Shown piece after piece: positions 4,085-51,806 of a DNA stretch of 64,000 nucleotides. The first letter of the stretch is position 1. Each line of letters starts with the position of its first letter. Location of the stretch: NCBI GenBank assembly GCA_027596075.1, contig JADGJC010000065.1:98833-162832 (forward strand). Direction: 5' to 3'. The position numbers and the translations under genes were made by a program. The notes beneath the pieces were generated by a model, which searched no databases, had not been told where the DNA came from, and saw nothing but the letters and a program-made list of their open reading frames with translations. The stretch is from Rhizophlyctis rosea. Taxonomy: Eukaryota; Chytridiomycota; Chytridiomycetes; Rhizophlyctidales; Rhizophlyctidaceae.

Positions 4085-4262
4085 CTTTGACGAACAGCTT
4101 CGAATGACTGATGCCCGTTCCTGCCATCAGAATCTGCACCAGCTTGTGAGAGTATCAATAACTTCAAGGTGACCATTCGCGCTTGCAAAGGATAGTGCTC
4201 TCGAATGCCTGACGTCTGCTTCGGCTTGGACGAGTAGTTCAACTACTCCAGTGTAGGCCTGC
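4085..4262 (-). pseudogene. Ankyrin-repeat relic
   Basis: Read on the minus strand from about 4262, the translation gives AYTGVVELLVQAEADV, then LSFASANGHLEVIDTL, which is a recognisable ankyrin helix pair. It then meets a TGA at about 4120; a neighbouring frame continues with an AGAD-like loop. There is no F-box start and no long open frame. It lies between genes 1 and 2 and on the same strand, so it is most simply the remains of a further member of the tandem array. Confidence 0.6.
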
Positions 4263-4629
4263 ACATGAAGCCATACTCACGGCGTCGGCGTGAATTAAGT
4301 GGATGCTCGCAAATACCAATTTGGCAACTTGGTATACGATGACTGATGACAAACGACTGTAATGAAGCTCAAAACAATGACTAGCGGGACGTTGTACAAC
4401 CAATCTCCTGCTGGTTCAAGACACATTGGTAAGAAACATCACGAGTAACTTCCCGGTGCGTCGTTGCCTTGCTAACAAAATCCCATGAAGTTATGTACAT
4501 GGTACAGATGATATTTGCAAATGGACGTGATGTTTGATATCTGTTAACAAAAAATCGCATGGAAACAGATCAACCAGCAAATGCGCATCAACTAACTAAC
4601 TGGCCATAAACTTGCATAAACCTAGCCAC
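4263..4629. other. Intergenic, no gene recognised
   Basis: This lies between the ankyrin relic and the 3' end of F-box/ankyrin gene 2. I see no coding or structured element. Confidence 0.3.
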
Positions 4630-6625
4630 CTATCCGGTCATTTCCTCTCCTCGGATCCAAACCCGCCCACACCCACCCCCAACTCCCTCCAACAAACACT
4701 CCACAACCTGCAAGTACCCACCTCCCGCCTCCAACAAACACTCCACAACCTGCAAGTACCCACCTCCCGCCGCACTAACAAGTGCTTCCTCCTTCCAAGC
4801 ATGCACGTCAGCACCGGCTTCCAAAAGAACCCTAATCATATCCCCGTCCCCACGCTTCGCAGCATCCACCAACGCTTCCTCAACCCTCGCATGCACATCA
4901 GCACCACTTTCCAAAACGATCGCAACCTGATCCCTACGCCCGTGACGCGCGGCGTTGATGAGGAGTTCATCGTTCCCACCGTGAATGTCGGCACCGGCTT
5001 CTAGCAGCATTTTGATCATGTTCCTATTTCCGTACTTCGCCGCCTCCTGCAAGACGATGCCGCCAACTCTATTGACTTTGCCGCCGTGCTCCAGCAAAAC
5101 TCTCAACACGTCCCCACATCCATAGTCGATAGCGTGGAGCAGAATCTTTCCCTCCCCAGCTTGCACATTTGCTCCAGCCTGAATCAGAAGCTTGACAGCC
5201 CTCAACTGTCCGCACCTCACTGCAACCAACAGTGCAGCGTCCAGTTCATCCTCATCATCCTCATCACCTGATGCTTGAACGTCCGCCCTGAACTTCAGCA
5301 AAAGCGAAAGGATATCGCAATGACCTTGTTGAGCCGCATCACTCAATATACGGCCCCAAGGATACCTCCAGCCTCCAATAACCGCTTCACCACTTCCGTA
5401 TGGCCTTCGCGTGCAGCCCAACCAAGAGCCCAACCATCCTCAGCATTAGGATTTGCCCCAGCCTCCAGCAAAATGGAAATCATTTCCGCCTGCCCAGCAT
5501 GAGCAGCGCATCCCAAGACCGGATCCAAAGAGATCTTCCAGATCGCCCCGTGATTCAACAGTACTTTCAACATTTCAACCGATCCCACCAAGACAGCTGA
5601 CAACAAGGCATAGCCGTCATCGTAACTCACGTCTGCCCCGGCTTCAAGCACAAGATGAGCAATCTCCATATGACCGTTCCGAATGGCTTGTCCCAAGGCT
5701 CTTTCTGACGGGCTCCCCCCAGCATTCAACAAGATCTTCACCACTTCTAGTCGCCCGCAACGAACTGCCGTACCCAACGCTACATCGATGACTTGCTTAT
5801 GTGCGCCAGCTTCAATCAGGAAGAGAACGGACTCCGAGGAACCCTTCTCAACCGCCTGCACTAATGCACACTGCGAAGGAACTGCCCCAAGATGCAACAG
5901 CAGTTTCACCGTTTCCATACGTCCTTGTTGAATAGCATAAAACAAGGGGCATTCGCTTCCAGCGTGGGAATTGATGTCTGCGCCGGCCTGTATCAAGCGC
6001 AACCCGATCTCCATGTGGCCCCTTTCGAAAGCTTAGCACAATGCTTCCGAACACCAGGTTTCCGCTCCAGCTGCAAGGAGTAGTCCGACAATCTCAAGGT
6101 GACCCGCACTGCTGGCTTCATCCAAGGCGTCGCCGACGTCCAGTGGCATTTCTGAATGGATCTTTGCTCCGTTTTGTAAAAGGACTTTGACGGTTTCCGT
6201 GTGGCCCATGCGGCAAGCTTTCACCAAAAACGGGTGGAGGTGGCGCGAAAAGGGGTGAGGAGGCGTTGAGAAGAGGAATGCCACCAAGTTGCCAGAATGC
6301 ACTGGAAACCCGGAAACCCTCAAAGCATTTACTGCGATTTGGACCAAGTCGGCTCGGTTGTTGTTGACACTAACTTCGAGGAGGTATTCTCTGAGTTCGT
6401 CGACATCGGGTAGGATGTGATGAATGACGTCCATATGATCGTTGTTGACGGCCCAGCGCCAGCAGTTGACAATACTTCGGTAGTAAAGTGTCCAACACGC
6501 TTCGCCATACACGAGATCGCCCGGCAGGATTTCGTGCCTGATGCCTTGCAGGAAGCACGAAGGTTTCGACCGCTCTTAGGATCGCTCCACCGCGCAACGG
6601 TGCGGAAGATCTCTGGTGGCAGCAT
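4630..6625 (-). pseudogene. F-box/ankyrin-repeat protein 2, broken
   Basis: The ATG at 6625 starts MLPPEIFRTVARWSDP, the same F-box-like opening as the sister genes, followed by ankyrin repeats down to 4630. Read through its breaks it would be about 665 residues. Three lesions are visible. A missing base at the CC of 6544-6545 separates the F-box start from the frame reading GDLVYGEACWTLYY. An in-frame TAA lies at 6033-6035, with ankyrin sequence continuing in the same frame on both sides (SEALC, stop, AFERGHMEI). A missing base at the CCCC of 5354-5357 follows. The C-terminus also contains a 42-bp tandem duplication (4688-4771). The nonsense codon makes true pseudogenisation more likely here than in gene 1. 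Confidence 0.75.
4688..4771. repeat. 42-bp tandem duplication in F-box/ankyrin gene 2
   Basis: Two exact 42-bp copies lie head to tail (4688-4729 and 4730-4771). On the minus strand each encodes 14 residues including GYLQVVECLLE, so the duplication keeps the frame but repeats less than half an ankyrin unit near the C-terminus. Confidence 0.9.
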
Positions 6626-39952: not shown

Positions 39953-42844
39953 ATGACCTCCAGAGCAACAGCACGACGGGTGCTGCCAGTCTTTTTGGTG
40001 ATTACGGTTTTATTCGTCGCGGTTTCCGCCAATTCATCACAATTACGGTATGGTTCGTTACGGTCTCATTCATCCATTTGCAAATTATGTCAGCGAACTG
40101 TAATATAACGCTGCTGAGAGTGGAGGTCCAACTAATTACCTTCAAAATCTAATCCTTTTTTGCAGGTTGGAAAGTCCAGACCAACAAACCGGCTCTGTGA
40201 ATGCAAGTGCGAGACTTGCTGCCTCCGACTTGAAAGACATCTTTCATCAAAAGTTCACAAACCTGAAGAACCATCACTCCTCCGAACCCCTGACAGCATC
40301 CTCAAAGGGCTCTGATATAGATCAAATTACATTCAATCCCACAACCGCAACTTACTTCGACTTCATCAACACCACTCCATGGTCAGCCGTCAACAACCTC
40401 ACAGACTCTCAACTCTCCCTCCTGAAACAAACCGGCTTCGTAGTCCTAAACCGAAACCTCAGCTCCTTGGGCGACTTCTACCATCACGCCTTCAAAAACG
40501 ACCTACCCGCCTACATTACCCCAGACGCCATCCTCCACGCCTACCACCGTTCCTTCGACGACCTCGAAACGCATTTCCTAGAACCGAGTTTAAAAGCCCT
40601 CCTCAATGGAATGCACCGGGTGTTGAACGAAACCGTGTCACAATATCTCGCGAATGACGAAAGTCAAGCAAAATCACCAGGTCTTCTTAGAACGTTTAAA
40701 GACGTCGACACCTTCCTAACCGTCGCCCGCCGCCTCCTCTTCCCATCCCCCATCCTCGACAATGAACGTCAATGGCGTGACCTCACCTTGCTGTGGGATG
40801 ATTTCGCTCTGGCAGAACACCATCTCGAGAACCTGCAAGAAGGTCCTAGATCCACCTCCCCACACGACAGCGGGGCATACCAAGAATGGTCACAACAAGT
40901 CGCCTGGGCGGAAGAGGAACGTCAAGATTCCTTAAAATATTTAGAAGAGGGTGGGTATGATAGAAACAACACGGATTTGGAGCAGGCGCTGAGGAGGGAC
41001 TGGTTGGTAAGGCGGATCCGATGGTGGGAGAAGGAGATTGAGGGTTGTAGAAAGTCGAAATTCCATCATTGTGAGGATGATGCAAGGATGGAGAAAGTAA
41101 CGACGGACCTTGAGAGGCGGAAGTGGGAGTTGGAGGAATTAGGACCCGATACGTCGACCGGTTGGCGAACTCGGCAGATGCGGGAAGCTGTGCCGTCATT
41201 TTTCGGCAAAGTTTCCGGACATGAGGAGACGGAAACACACATCACGTCAATCCTTTCCGTTATTCTCGACCATGCACCGTTCAGCTTCGTGACGCTCTTT
41301 GGCGTCACCGATGAGGAATTCGACGGACGCACTTCATTCCGCGCGGGCATTACACCAAGTTAAAGGTTTTGGAACGGTATCTTAGGACCATGATGTGGTT
41401 GGGGAAGTGGAAGTTGGATGTGACTGGTGGAGAAGAAGGTCGGTTGGAGGGAGTTGCTGCGACTGTGGTTATGAAACATTTGTTGGATGGGTTGAATGGC
41501 GGGTGGGAACTTTGGGAGGGGATTCAAAGCTTTTTGACGAATATGTTTGGATCTGGGACCACGTTGAATTTAAGTGACGTGCGGACATTGCTGGAGAGGA
41601 CGAGGCGTACGGGGCAGCAACCCCCTCGGCCAGCCAACTGTTAAATTCTTTATCTCGAACCGTGAACAACTCCATACACTGCAACTCGCCATCCTCCCCA
41701 ACTCTCGGCCTAAACGGCTTCATCTCCGCCGCCCGCGAATTCCGTACACACGACGTCCGAAAATTTGCGTTCATGCCTCAACGCTTTACCCTCGACTCCT
41801 TCCCTCTCGCTCACGCCGTCAAGGACAGCATGCCCAGTGCCCTGGACGTGGCATACAGTGTGTTTGACACCCAGGCGGCTGGAAGTTGGTTGGAAGATCA
41901 TATTGCGCAGGCAGAACGCAACGGCTATATGGAAGCCAGAGAACTCCGCAGAGACCGCGTTAGGGCATTGAAAGATGTGATGAACGAGCTTAGCGACAAC
42001 ATCTGGACTCATAGTATCTACTCCCTCTGGTTACGGACCCTCCGAAATCGCTCACCCAACACCGCCACCCCTCCTCACCCACAAACAATGCGAACCACCC
42101 AATGGGCTTCCCGAACCATGGACGCACAATTATCATCCTGGACTCAACTCCGCCACGACACGATCCTCTACGTCGAACAATCCGGTGCCATGATGACTTG
42201 CGAGCATCCGGCCATTTACGTAGATCCCAACCCCCCATTCTGGCAAGCCTTCATCGACATGACTACACGAACTGCGGAAGTCGTCAATGACGCTCAGGGT
42301 ATGATGGAAGCGTTACGAAAAGTCGAGACACACCCAACCACCCATTCCTACCGCAACGCCACACGCATGACGGACCACTTCACCCACTTCACCTCAATCC
42401 TCTCCACCCTCCACGATGCTTTACGTACCCTTGCATCCAACCAACCCCTAAAGCCGGAACAATTCACCGCCCTAAAAGACATCCTCCACCACACCCCCGG
42501 CTACGACTGTGGGCCCTCCCCAACATACGACGGATGGTACCCCTCCCTTTTCTACACCTCCCCCTCACAATGCATGGACGCCGAATACCTAGTCGCCGAC
42601 GTACACACCCAACTCCTCAGGCGGAATCCTTCACGAGGGACTTGGATACATTCAACCGATGGTAGTGGTTGTTGATGGGGCCGATGTTGGTGGGGGTGAG
42701 ATGGCGTTTGTTGGGCCTGTTTGGAGTCATTATGAGTTTGTGGAGACGAAAAATAGACTGAAGGATGAGATGTGGGAGGGACGAGTCAGGGGAGGAAGAT
42801 TGCCGGGGAGGGGTGGGTGGACCTTGGAGTATTTGAGGGATTGA
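39953..42844 (+). CDS. Secreted DUF3160-family protein with three frame breaks
   Basis: Exon 1 (39953-40047) encodes a signal peptide (ATG, then VLPVFLVITVLFVAVSA). A 118-nt intron leads in phase to the main exon at 40166. DUF3160 marks follow in order: TGFVVLNRN, LPAYITPDAILHAYHRSFDD, FIPRGHYTKLK with RYLRTMMWLGKW, FAFMPQRFTLDSFPL, MPSALDVAYSVF, SSWTQLRHDTILYVEQS, VDPNPPFW, and finally VADVHT and MAFVGPVWSHYEF. The frame breaks at about 41330 (one base missing in a GG pair), about 41595 (one base missing in a GG pair) and about 42615 (one base extra). No enzymatic role is known for the family, which I know mainly from prokaryotes. The intron and signal peptide show it is at home in a eukaryotic genome. 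Confidence 0.8.
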
Positions 42845-48662: not shown

Positions 48663-51600
48663 ATGTTATCAGCCCACGAAGAAGGTCCATCTACCTCCGC
48701 AACAGACCCACAACGTAAAACATGGGAGGAACCTCAATTGACGTCGCTGGGTGGGTACTCCCATTTCTACTCTCTCTTGTCAAGCGCGTTCCACATGTGT
48801 AGCTAAATGGCATCTCCCAGAATTTGGCGACAAGGCGAGGGAATTCTTCCAGATGTTGGAGCGTGTGGAATCACACACGCCTGAGCTTCAACTTGGTATG
48901 GCTTTGAAGGAGTTTGCTATTAATTTCGAAGGGAGTTCTGAACTGACCTGACGGGGTTCATCAGTGACTACCAGTTTTGTTGGCGATTGCCTATTTGAGG
49001 CGCTGGCCATTGGGGAGGGAAGGAAACGAGACGCACAAGCAGTTCGGTTGGCAATCACTCTCTATCTGCGCAACCATCCCCATCAACTCGAATCTCTCGT
49101 TCGAGACGAGGATCTTGGCGGTCCTCATCAGCAGACCACGATTACTACGATCGACCAGTATATTTCATCGATGGAACGTCCCGGCACCTGGGGAAGTCGC
49201 CATGAGATATTGGCGTTTGCTTCTTGTACAAATCGACCTGTCGTGATAATCACTGGCCGCGAGCACATCAACCCCGTTTGGCCACCGATGCAGCCGGGTC
49301 CAATGGGTGAGCCCATTTATGTAGCTTACCTTGAGGGCACCAACCATTATTTCGGAGTGACTTTGAAAAGAGGTCAGTAGATATGTTCTCCCAAATGCCA
49401 TGTCGCCTTTTGACCGAGTCAGTTTTTTTTAGCCGAGCTGCCCTTACGAGAGATGCTCATCCATCAATCTGAAGTCAACCGTATGGTCACAAAAGCACAA
49501 CTGGCCCTCGACAGACTACCACCTAGTGTACCTTCTCCCCTCCGTGAACAAACTCGACTTCATTTGGAAGGCCTGGAGCGGGAACCATTCGTGGTGACTT
49601 TACATGGGCCAATGGGGGTGGGCAAAACCTCACTCTTAATCCGCATCCTTGGCAAGGACTGTTTAGTTGATGGGGATGGGGGACGAAGTGTCAGTGCTGT
49701 GCCTGTCGAAATATCATCGAACGAGGGCGTAGATTATCACATAGGGGTGCAGAGTTTTACCCGGGAGGAATTAGAGGGAGAGATCTGTCCTGAGCTGCTC
49801 AAAATGGCATCGGACTTCCCACCTGCAAAGAATTTGCTTGAGGCCTTGTGCTTGCATACCAACTTTCGCACTTCTGAAGACGGGCCGGCGGAGGATCCTC
49901 GTTTTGTGTTGCGTGACGAGGTCCTCGAGCTCCTCCAGTCCAACACCTCTTTGAGACCCCTCGAACGTATTCCGACCCAAACCGAACTCCGTCGTAGCCT
50001 CAAACTCGCCACGGCCTATACCACCAAAGATAAGGACAGCCAACTCTACCTACGATTGATCACCACCAAACGTGTCACTCTGTCTGGTCCCTTCCACTTC
50101 CCTCCTGGTCTCACTTTTGTTGACCTTCCCGGAGAGCTCGAAGCGATGACATTCTACTGGCGTAAACTCTACGAAAAATCCGACTTCAAACTCTATCTAC
50201 AGCCCATTAAGCGAGCAATCTCCGACATGGAAAGCATGACAGCAAGGGGCATCACCGAGAAATTCCCGTTTATCTTTTCGTCCGACAACGCGGCTCGGGG
50301 TGTCCTAGATCGTTTTGCGGTGATATTCACCGAGAGTATGACGTTGTCGGGGAGACTAGGGAACGCAGGTGACATGTACGGCTTTGATGAGACTTATGGG
50401 TTGGAGAAACAGGTGTTATGGGCGCGCAATGAGGATTTGCGCAGTAGGGTGCGCAAGTTAGTTTATGATGCATATCTCCAATTAGTCCCATTCGATAACC
50501 ACCATCTTCTCGAGTCCGCTAGCCGCTTGCCAATCCTGACGGTGGACTCGGATCCGGGTGATAGACTTACAGATCGGCCTTGGTTGAGGGGTATCGACAA
50601 ACTGATGGAATTGTTAATATCCCGCGCAACTGGTCAGCGTTTGTGCAGCACACACGAAGATTTGAGACGGTTGTTCGGTGGGGTGGAGGATATGGTCAAC
50701 CATCCAACAAATGACCGGCAACGTGTCGCAACGGACTTACAAAATGTCCTGGACGGTGTGCAGCAATCTGTCGAGGGTCGAATCACCAATTTCCTCAATG
50801 CGGTATCATGGGCGGACTATGAGCGTCTGCTGGGAGCAGGGCCGGAGTTTGGGATGCTGGAACCTGCAATGTGTGGGAGGATCTGGTTCATCCGTCGTCA
50901 GAAGAAGGTGGCCTGGAACACCTTTCAGAAAGCCTTGGAAGTGGGAGGTACTTATCACAATAGAGGTCAAGCCGTGGACATCTCCAATTCCCTGGCTGGT
51001 GTGATCGTCCTTGAGCGGGCGTGGGCAAATTTCTTCCACGATACCCAGTTGCTGCGGGATAGTATCTACAATGACCGGTTCAACCCCTCTATCCATACCC
51101 TCCCGATCAACATTGCTCAAAACCTTGGCAACGGACTACTTCGAGTGGGGGAAATTCTCGCCCAATCGACAGCGCGACTCGGTTCACGTATCCAATCCAT
51201 TATCGAAACCAGTATTCAACGCACGATTGGGTCGCACTACCACAATGCGCTCGTCCGTACACAACAAGGATGTTACGATCAAATGGAAGAAAATGTCAAA
51301 AACATTATCCGCATCAATTTCCCTGCCTTCCAAGCCGATGCCGTCCCGAGGCTCAATCAGGAGCTCGCCCAATTTGCCCGCGATGTAAGTTGCTCGTATG
51401 CAAGAGAAGATCTAATAAATAGTCACATAACACTGGAATCAGCTGCAGAATTTGTCCCGAGAATTTCATCGTTCAACCTACCCAACAGTCGAAGCGTATC
51501 TCAGTGAGCTTGACGAATCTTACCGTGAATCTTGCAAACCCCTATTGGAATGGGCCGGGAAATTCTTGCAAGAAATCACGCCGGAATCAAACGTAAGGCG

Positions 51601-51806
51601 TCCAGTAACCGTAGTACCCATGCGATCGAAGTCTCAAACTCACTTCAACTTTGCAGCGGTTCAATGTAGACAAATGCATCATTTGTTTGGATAGCATTTT
51701 CGTGGGGCGGAACAAACAGTTGGGTTGTGGGCACATTTACCATGCACTTTGTATTGATCCCTGGTTGGATGACCACGATTTTTGTCCAACGTGCCGTCGA
51801 AGCTAA
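48663..51806 (+). CDS. OTU protease - large GTPase - RING-H2 fusion protein
   Basis: Six exons (48663-48750, 48803-48895, 48965-49372, 49433-51384, 51443-51592, 51657-51806) join with every phase matching into 946 residues. Residues ~61-196 are OTU-like: GDCLFEAL puts the nucleophile at Cys69, PGTWGSRHEILAFA is the conserved middle, and NHYFGVTL gives His188. Residues ~240-600 hold a GTPase of the dynamin/GBP-like class: P-loop GPMGVGKTS (255-263) and switch II FVDLPGE (DLPG 427-430). A long alpha-rich stretch follows to ~897. Residues 904-943 form a RING-H2 finger: C904, C907, C921, H923, H926, C929, C940, C943. So a predicted deubiquitinase, a mechanical GTPase and a predicted E3 ligase lie on one chain. 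Joining of the first two domains rests on a 60-nt GTCAGT...TTTTAG intron that removes an in-frame TAG. Confidence 0.82.

Follow-up and report, generated by a model that had tools for sequence, protein, structure and literature searches.

A predicted chytrid protein joining an OTU domain, a SLIP-GC-like P-loop core and a RING-H2 finger

RNF213, in which an AAA+ core occurs together with a RING, is a parallel for the pairing of an NTPase with a RING, and the ubiquitin-editing protein A20 (TNFAIP3) contains, to our knowledge, neither a P-loop core nor a RING. A20 is described in the cited passages of PMC9110840 as a single chain with an N-terminal OTU domain and a C-terminal zinc-finger E3 module, and as carrying seven zinc fingers. 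The same passages report that a point mutation in either the OTU domain or ZnF4 of A20 does not cause in mice the severe inflammation seen in A20-null animals, which implies, as far as that account goes, that catalysis is not the whole story in A20. An earlier note on the locus studied here had proposed that a single polypeptide able to write and erase ubiquitin under control of a GTP-driven switch would be novel; with the arrangement described for A20 (PMC9110840) as precedent, the claim of novelty for writing and erasing in one chain is weakened. The chytrid protein resembles A20 in having the OTU domain first and the E3 module last within a single chain, but it differs in having one RING-H2 finger and a P-loop core, so that three modules are found in one protein where the known precedent combines only two.

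The window analysed is a stretch of 64,000 nucleotides (contig C573, 98833-162832) from the genome of Rhizophlyctis rosea (44.1 Mb, 634 contigs), a chytrid of the order Rhizophlyctidales. Within positions 48663-51806 of this window, six exons join into an open coding sequence of 2,823 nt that encodes 940 residues followed by a single terminal stop.

48663..48750, + strand: exon 1, residues 1-30, with the start ATG; same in the GenBank model
48821..48895, + strand: exon 2, residues 30-55; same in the GenBank model
48965..49372, + strand: exon 3, OTU domain, residues 55-191, with Cys63, His182, V60 and F184
49373..49432, + strand: intron 3, between OTU domain and core, GTCAGT...TTTTTTTTAG, 60 nt, phase 1
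49433..51384, + strand: exon 4, P-loop core, residues 191-841, with G1 at 249-257, G3 at 421-424 and a degenerate G4 at 490-493
51443..51592, + strand: exon 5, residues 842-891, C-terminal part with PLLEWAG (PLLDWAQ in the paralog)
51593..51656, + strand: intron 5, GTAAGG...TTTGCAG, 64 nt, phase 0; left unspliced in the GenBank model
51657..51806, + strand: exon 6, RING-H2 finger, residues 892-940 and the stop

All five introns are GT-AG and 58-70 nt long, and introns 1, 2 and 4 have in-frame alternative splice sites whose use would change a few residues. The in-phase joining of the six exons, which had been claimed before, thus holds for the whole coding sequence, and at the two introns singled out for checking (49373-49432 and 51593-51656) the sequence has GT-AG borders and the frame is kept. 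The GenBank model HDV00_010772 (hypothetical protein, Rhizophlyctis rosea; 924 residues) is identical over exons 1-5 (891 residues). In the spliced protein we recovered GPMGVGKTS (249-257), FVDLPGE (419-425) and a complete C3H2C3 RING (896-938), all as previously listed, together with the two OTU motifs, GDC and NHY; the motifs are therefore present, but the residues formerly numbered Cys69 and His188 are Cys63 and His182 here. A Pfam scan of the 940-residue protein gave zf-RING_2 (2.5e-10) and OTU (8.3e-9), both over their curated cut-offs, and Dynamin_N (0.007) below its own, so that of the profile matches looked for at this locus PF02338 and PF13639 were obtained but a dynamin family was not. 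The OTU and RING matches exceed chance. In agreement with the earlier note, the locus is best read as a single gene that encodes an OTU domain, a P-loop core and a RING, in that order.

The RING-H2 finger is the best Pfam match of the protein, with PF13639 (zf-RING_2) scoring 46.8 bits (3.5e-12) on the open reading frame and 40.9 bits on the spliced protein against a cut-off of 27.3. All eight zinc ligands are present with C3H2C3 spacing, as in RING-H2 E3 ligases (PF13639), from which the chytrid RING differs by being attached behind a P-loop core. It also has an Ile after Cys1, a Trp, and an Arg after Cys8, residues that in RINGs have roles in E2 binding and allostery. The RING open reading frame (51615-51806) contains no Met, and splicing of intron 5 puts it exactly in frame with exon 5. 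Because HDV00_010772 retains this intron it lacks the RING, and its tail consists of 33 residues read into intron 5 and past it before a stop. Were retention the normal state, as that model has it, the RING would not be made and the product would be the annotated 924-residue OTU-core protein. This we consider very unlikely, since the intron has the borders GTAAGG...TTTGCAG, an intact Met-less RING follows in the exact splice frame, and in a paralog the corresponding place is likewise occupied by a RING. The annotation of HDV00_010772 probably needs correcting at 51593-51806, where one retained intron has cost the public gene model a whole domain.

That paralog was the only one found when the genome was searched with the core (C223:102059-102823, 33% identity, E 4.6e-10), and it is broken by one TGA and two TAG codons in the aligned part. 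The locus (L007:4460-5940, C223 ~101959-103439) corresponds to the C-terminal half of the core, interrupted by stops and broken frames, and then a RING-H2 finger: PLLDWAQ is followed by a RING with complete ligands (zf-RING_2, 1.7e-9), at the same place as the PLLEWAG-RING junction of the intact gene. A tblastn search of 9.9 kb around it gave nothing above noise for either the G domain or the OTU. The genome contains at least 105 zf-RING_2 candidates in 44.1 Mb, 10 of these at E <= 1e-8. Should the real total be close to 105, the probability that a RING lies by chance no more than 1 kb from any one gene would be ~0.002, and for both loci ~6e-6; two chance placements behind homologous regions are therefore unlikely. 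That the RING frame has no Met, and that the RING of the paralog follows a homologous C-terminal region, argues that the core and the RING belong together.

The junction between the OTU domain and the core was weighed separately. The unspliced OTU frame has no Met upstream of its Cys motif, so that an upstream exon is needed, and it stops at a TAG (49378-49380) only 72 nt before an in-frame ATG (49453). These positions would accommodate a pair of neighbouring genes, one for a small OTU protein that stops at the TAG and one for the P-loop core and RING that begins with the ATG, and the paralog, which shows no OTU, fits such an arrangement. Moreover, an open, in-phase join is given by 6 of the 18 GT-AG pairs examined across the OTU-core gap, and phase by itself therefore supports the join only weakly. 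Two separate genes nevertheless seem improbable: intron 3 combines a GTCAGT donor with a T8AG acceptor that looks strong by eye, 72 nt leave little room for a promoter, the GenBank prediction also joins OTU to core through intron 3, and the PLRE just before the Met at 49453 aligns by eye with the IRxL with which SLIP-GC proteins begin (alignment A1). No second locus with an OTU joined to the core was found in the genome, the C223 paralog aligning only from about residue 521. Judged from these features, the OTU domain is very probably fused to the core in one protein.

Within the core, G1 (GPMGVGKTS) and G3 (DLPG) are intact, and TESM is found where relatives have the G4 motif SK(T/S)D (alignment A1, 29 relatives), so that the phosphate-binding but not the guanine-choosing motif is kept. 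In the G2 region, RACTAV of the core is aligned to RSVSAV, with Thr in place of Ser. The Dynamin_N match (16.8-17.7 bits, E 0.004-0.007, below the cut-off of 27) spans the P-loop to past G3. With G4 replaced and Dynamin_N below its cut-off, the description of the core as a large GTPase goes beyond what the motifs allow, and the label is unproven.

The genome contains a clear SLIP-GC-type gene on another contig (C613; Dynamin_N, 2.8e-17), with which 667 relatives were found, including one that bears the name Nuclear GTPase SLIP-GC; among the 120 of these that were listed, regular expressions matched G1 in 120/120, VDLPG in 119/120 and TFICSK[TS]D in 111/120. The core shares with this fungal family G1, RxxxAVxxEIS, a WPLI-like stretch, VDLPG and PIxRAxxD, with their order kept, but differs in having TESM for the SLIP-GC G4 SK(T/S)D. 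Aligned to a SLIP-GC profile built from 46 of the 120 listed relatives, the G region of the core gave an hhalign score of 56.7 over 245 columns, a value reached by none of 400 P-loop-fixed shuffles (mean 33.4, highest 42.8), and its plain HMM score of 8.2 bits was equalled by none of 1000 shuffles. Controls from the same genome pointed the other way. In the HMM search, four P-loop frames outside the SLIP-GC gene scored 12.5, 11.4, 8.6 and 8.2 against 7.5 for the core; nine control frames gave hhalign scores of 28.6-60.8, six of them at 51-61 and one above the core, over 31-109 columns; and with the P-loop removed the core scored 26.4, which 2/200 shuffles and 2/9 control frames (28.6, 28.9) exceeded. 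The C-terminal part of the core, at 4.0 bits, did not rise above the level of shuffled sequences, the best of 1000 reaching 3.9 (profile from 16 of the 120 listed), and the paralog frame scored 0.7 bits with the same profile. A firm assignment to the SLIP-GC family was set aside on the control-frame, P-loop-removed and C-terminal scores, and we describe the core as SLIP-GC-like rather than as a member, with kinship likely. Two AlphaFold2 models made from SLIP-GC alignments were poor (mean pLDDT 47.4 and 50.7).

Neither a RING-like nor a DG[ND]C OTU-like pattern occurs in any of the 120 listed SLIP-GC relatives (of 667), and PF02338 and PF13639 are not among the Pfam domains listed for them. 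Further SLIP-GC-like loci of the genome lie in pieces at L039 ~4204-5021 (C628) and L040 ~4272-5291 (C198). No RING pattern was seen near either in 9.9 kb each, read as piecewise frames that a split RING would escape. In the SLIP-GC-type gene itself (L024:901-2940), G1, G3 and G4 are present in the part spliced by eye, and an intron at ~L024:1847-1903 is best read as GC-AG.

The OTU domain matches PF02338 with 41.5 bits (2.3e-10) on the open reading frame and 36.5 bits on the spliced protein (cut-off 23.3), in an alignment that stops at residue 178, short of the catalytic-position His182. Cys63 and His182 align with two of the three other OTU loci of the genome. The third catalytic residue can occupy either of two reference positions: in CG3251 (CG3251/OTUD4 type) the triad is predicted, in the cited text of PMC4654579, as D37-S40-H143, with the Asp three residues ahead of the Ser at the nucleophile position, and in OTULIN it is given as Cys129-His339-Asn341, with the Asn at His+2 (PMC3690481, cited passage). 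In an alignment with two OTUs of the same genome, the chytrid OTU has neither an Asp at Cys-3 nor an Asn or Asp at His+2, these positions being V60 and F184. It thus resembles OTU deubiquitinases in its PF02338 match and in the retained Cys and His, but departs from them at both acid/Asn positions and in its fusion to a core and a RING. Another OTU of this genome (C135, L008:3289-3771) likewise has neither residue, with Thr at Cys-3 and Ile at His+2, and the absence is therefore a reason for caution, not proof of inactivity; the Asp at Cys-3 is present at the L009 locus. A different residue elsewhere in the domain could act as the third. The capacity to erase ubiquitin that had been ascribed to the domain is accordingly put in doubt. 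A PDB sequence search with the OTU domain gave a weak match only, to OTU domain-containing protein 2 (0.053).

These residues bear on whether the protein is a true ubiquitin-editing enzyme in the manner of A20, its OTU cutting one chain type, its RING building another, and the core switching between them according to its nucleotide state. The shared order of an OTU first and an E3 module last, as described for A20 in the cited part of PMC9110840, and the conserved Cys63 and His182 would suit such an enzyme; V60 and F184 and the lost G4 would not, nor would the Pfam matches up to E 0.01, among which there is no A20-type zinc finger, and we regard it as doubtful. The missing G4 and OTU acid, together with the fact that the sole paralog found is broken (one TGA, two TAG), could alternatively mark a former ubiquitin enzyme drifting without present function. 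Decay of this kind is most improbable for a gene in which 940 codons are open across five introns, a 697-codon frame runs without a stop, and the RING ligands, the P-loop and DLPG are all intact.

Searches for relatives and for the same domain order covered several collections. Parts of the protein compared with 5.8 billion proteins found only the protein itself at E <= 10, in a search that detects relatives sharing exact 5-residue words, scored the best 7994 candidates by shared words for one query part and all 834 for the other, and can miss distant relatives. A PDB sequence search with the core found nothing significant (best E 0.17), NCBIfam gave no match near a cut-off, and DUF7605 had no match in the genome at E <= 0.1. 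In viral contigs two stretches fitted the search pattern, neither of which codes for a relative, and no relative was found in phage records. Beside the other OTU loci of the genome (C135, C355 and C29) no core was seen by eye in the lists of open reading frames, and six-frame pieces of these stretches, unspliced, gave only OTU-level or chance scores against HDV00_010772. No description of the OTU-core-RING order was found in open-licence literature among the best matches by title and start of abstract. Within these limited searches, the earlier statement that no protein of this order had been described stands, and the gene brings known modules together in a new way, seen in a single species to date.

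With moderate confidence we propose that this single 940-residue protein is a nucleotide-binding RING E3 scaffold with a SLIP-GC-like core and an atypical OTU. Its zinc ligands suggest that it would act as a RING-type ubiquitin ligase. The core, which would be related, though diverged, to fungal SLIP-GC-type proteins of the dynamin superfamily, may bind nucleotide, assemble, or both, and in its nucleotide-bound or assembled state could position or gate the RING. The N-terminal OTU would most likely bind ubiquitin, or weakly trim it, on the substrate of the ligase or on the ligase; since neither of the usual positions carries the third catalytic residue, we do not assume a fully active deubiquitinase. 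Every activity, nucleotide, substrate and cellular role that we give to the chytrid protein we infer, and the roles in innate defence, self/non-self recognition or organelle quality control once suggested for it are indicated by none of our results. If the core does gate the RING, the protein would offer a compact example of ubiquitin transfer under NTP control in an early-diverging fungus. A bolder form of the proposal, which we think unlikely, is a nucleotide-gated ubiquitin editor in which a dynamin-superfamily-like core with changed nucleotide choice would switch between chain building by the RING and holding or cutting by the OTU; the searches made found no described example of such an OTU-core-RING editor.

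Elsewhere in the window, two adjoining frames at 40104-42672 match the start (2.1e-17) and a later part (9.2e-46) of DUF3160, and probably belong to one spliced gene.
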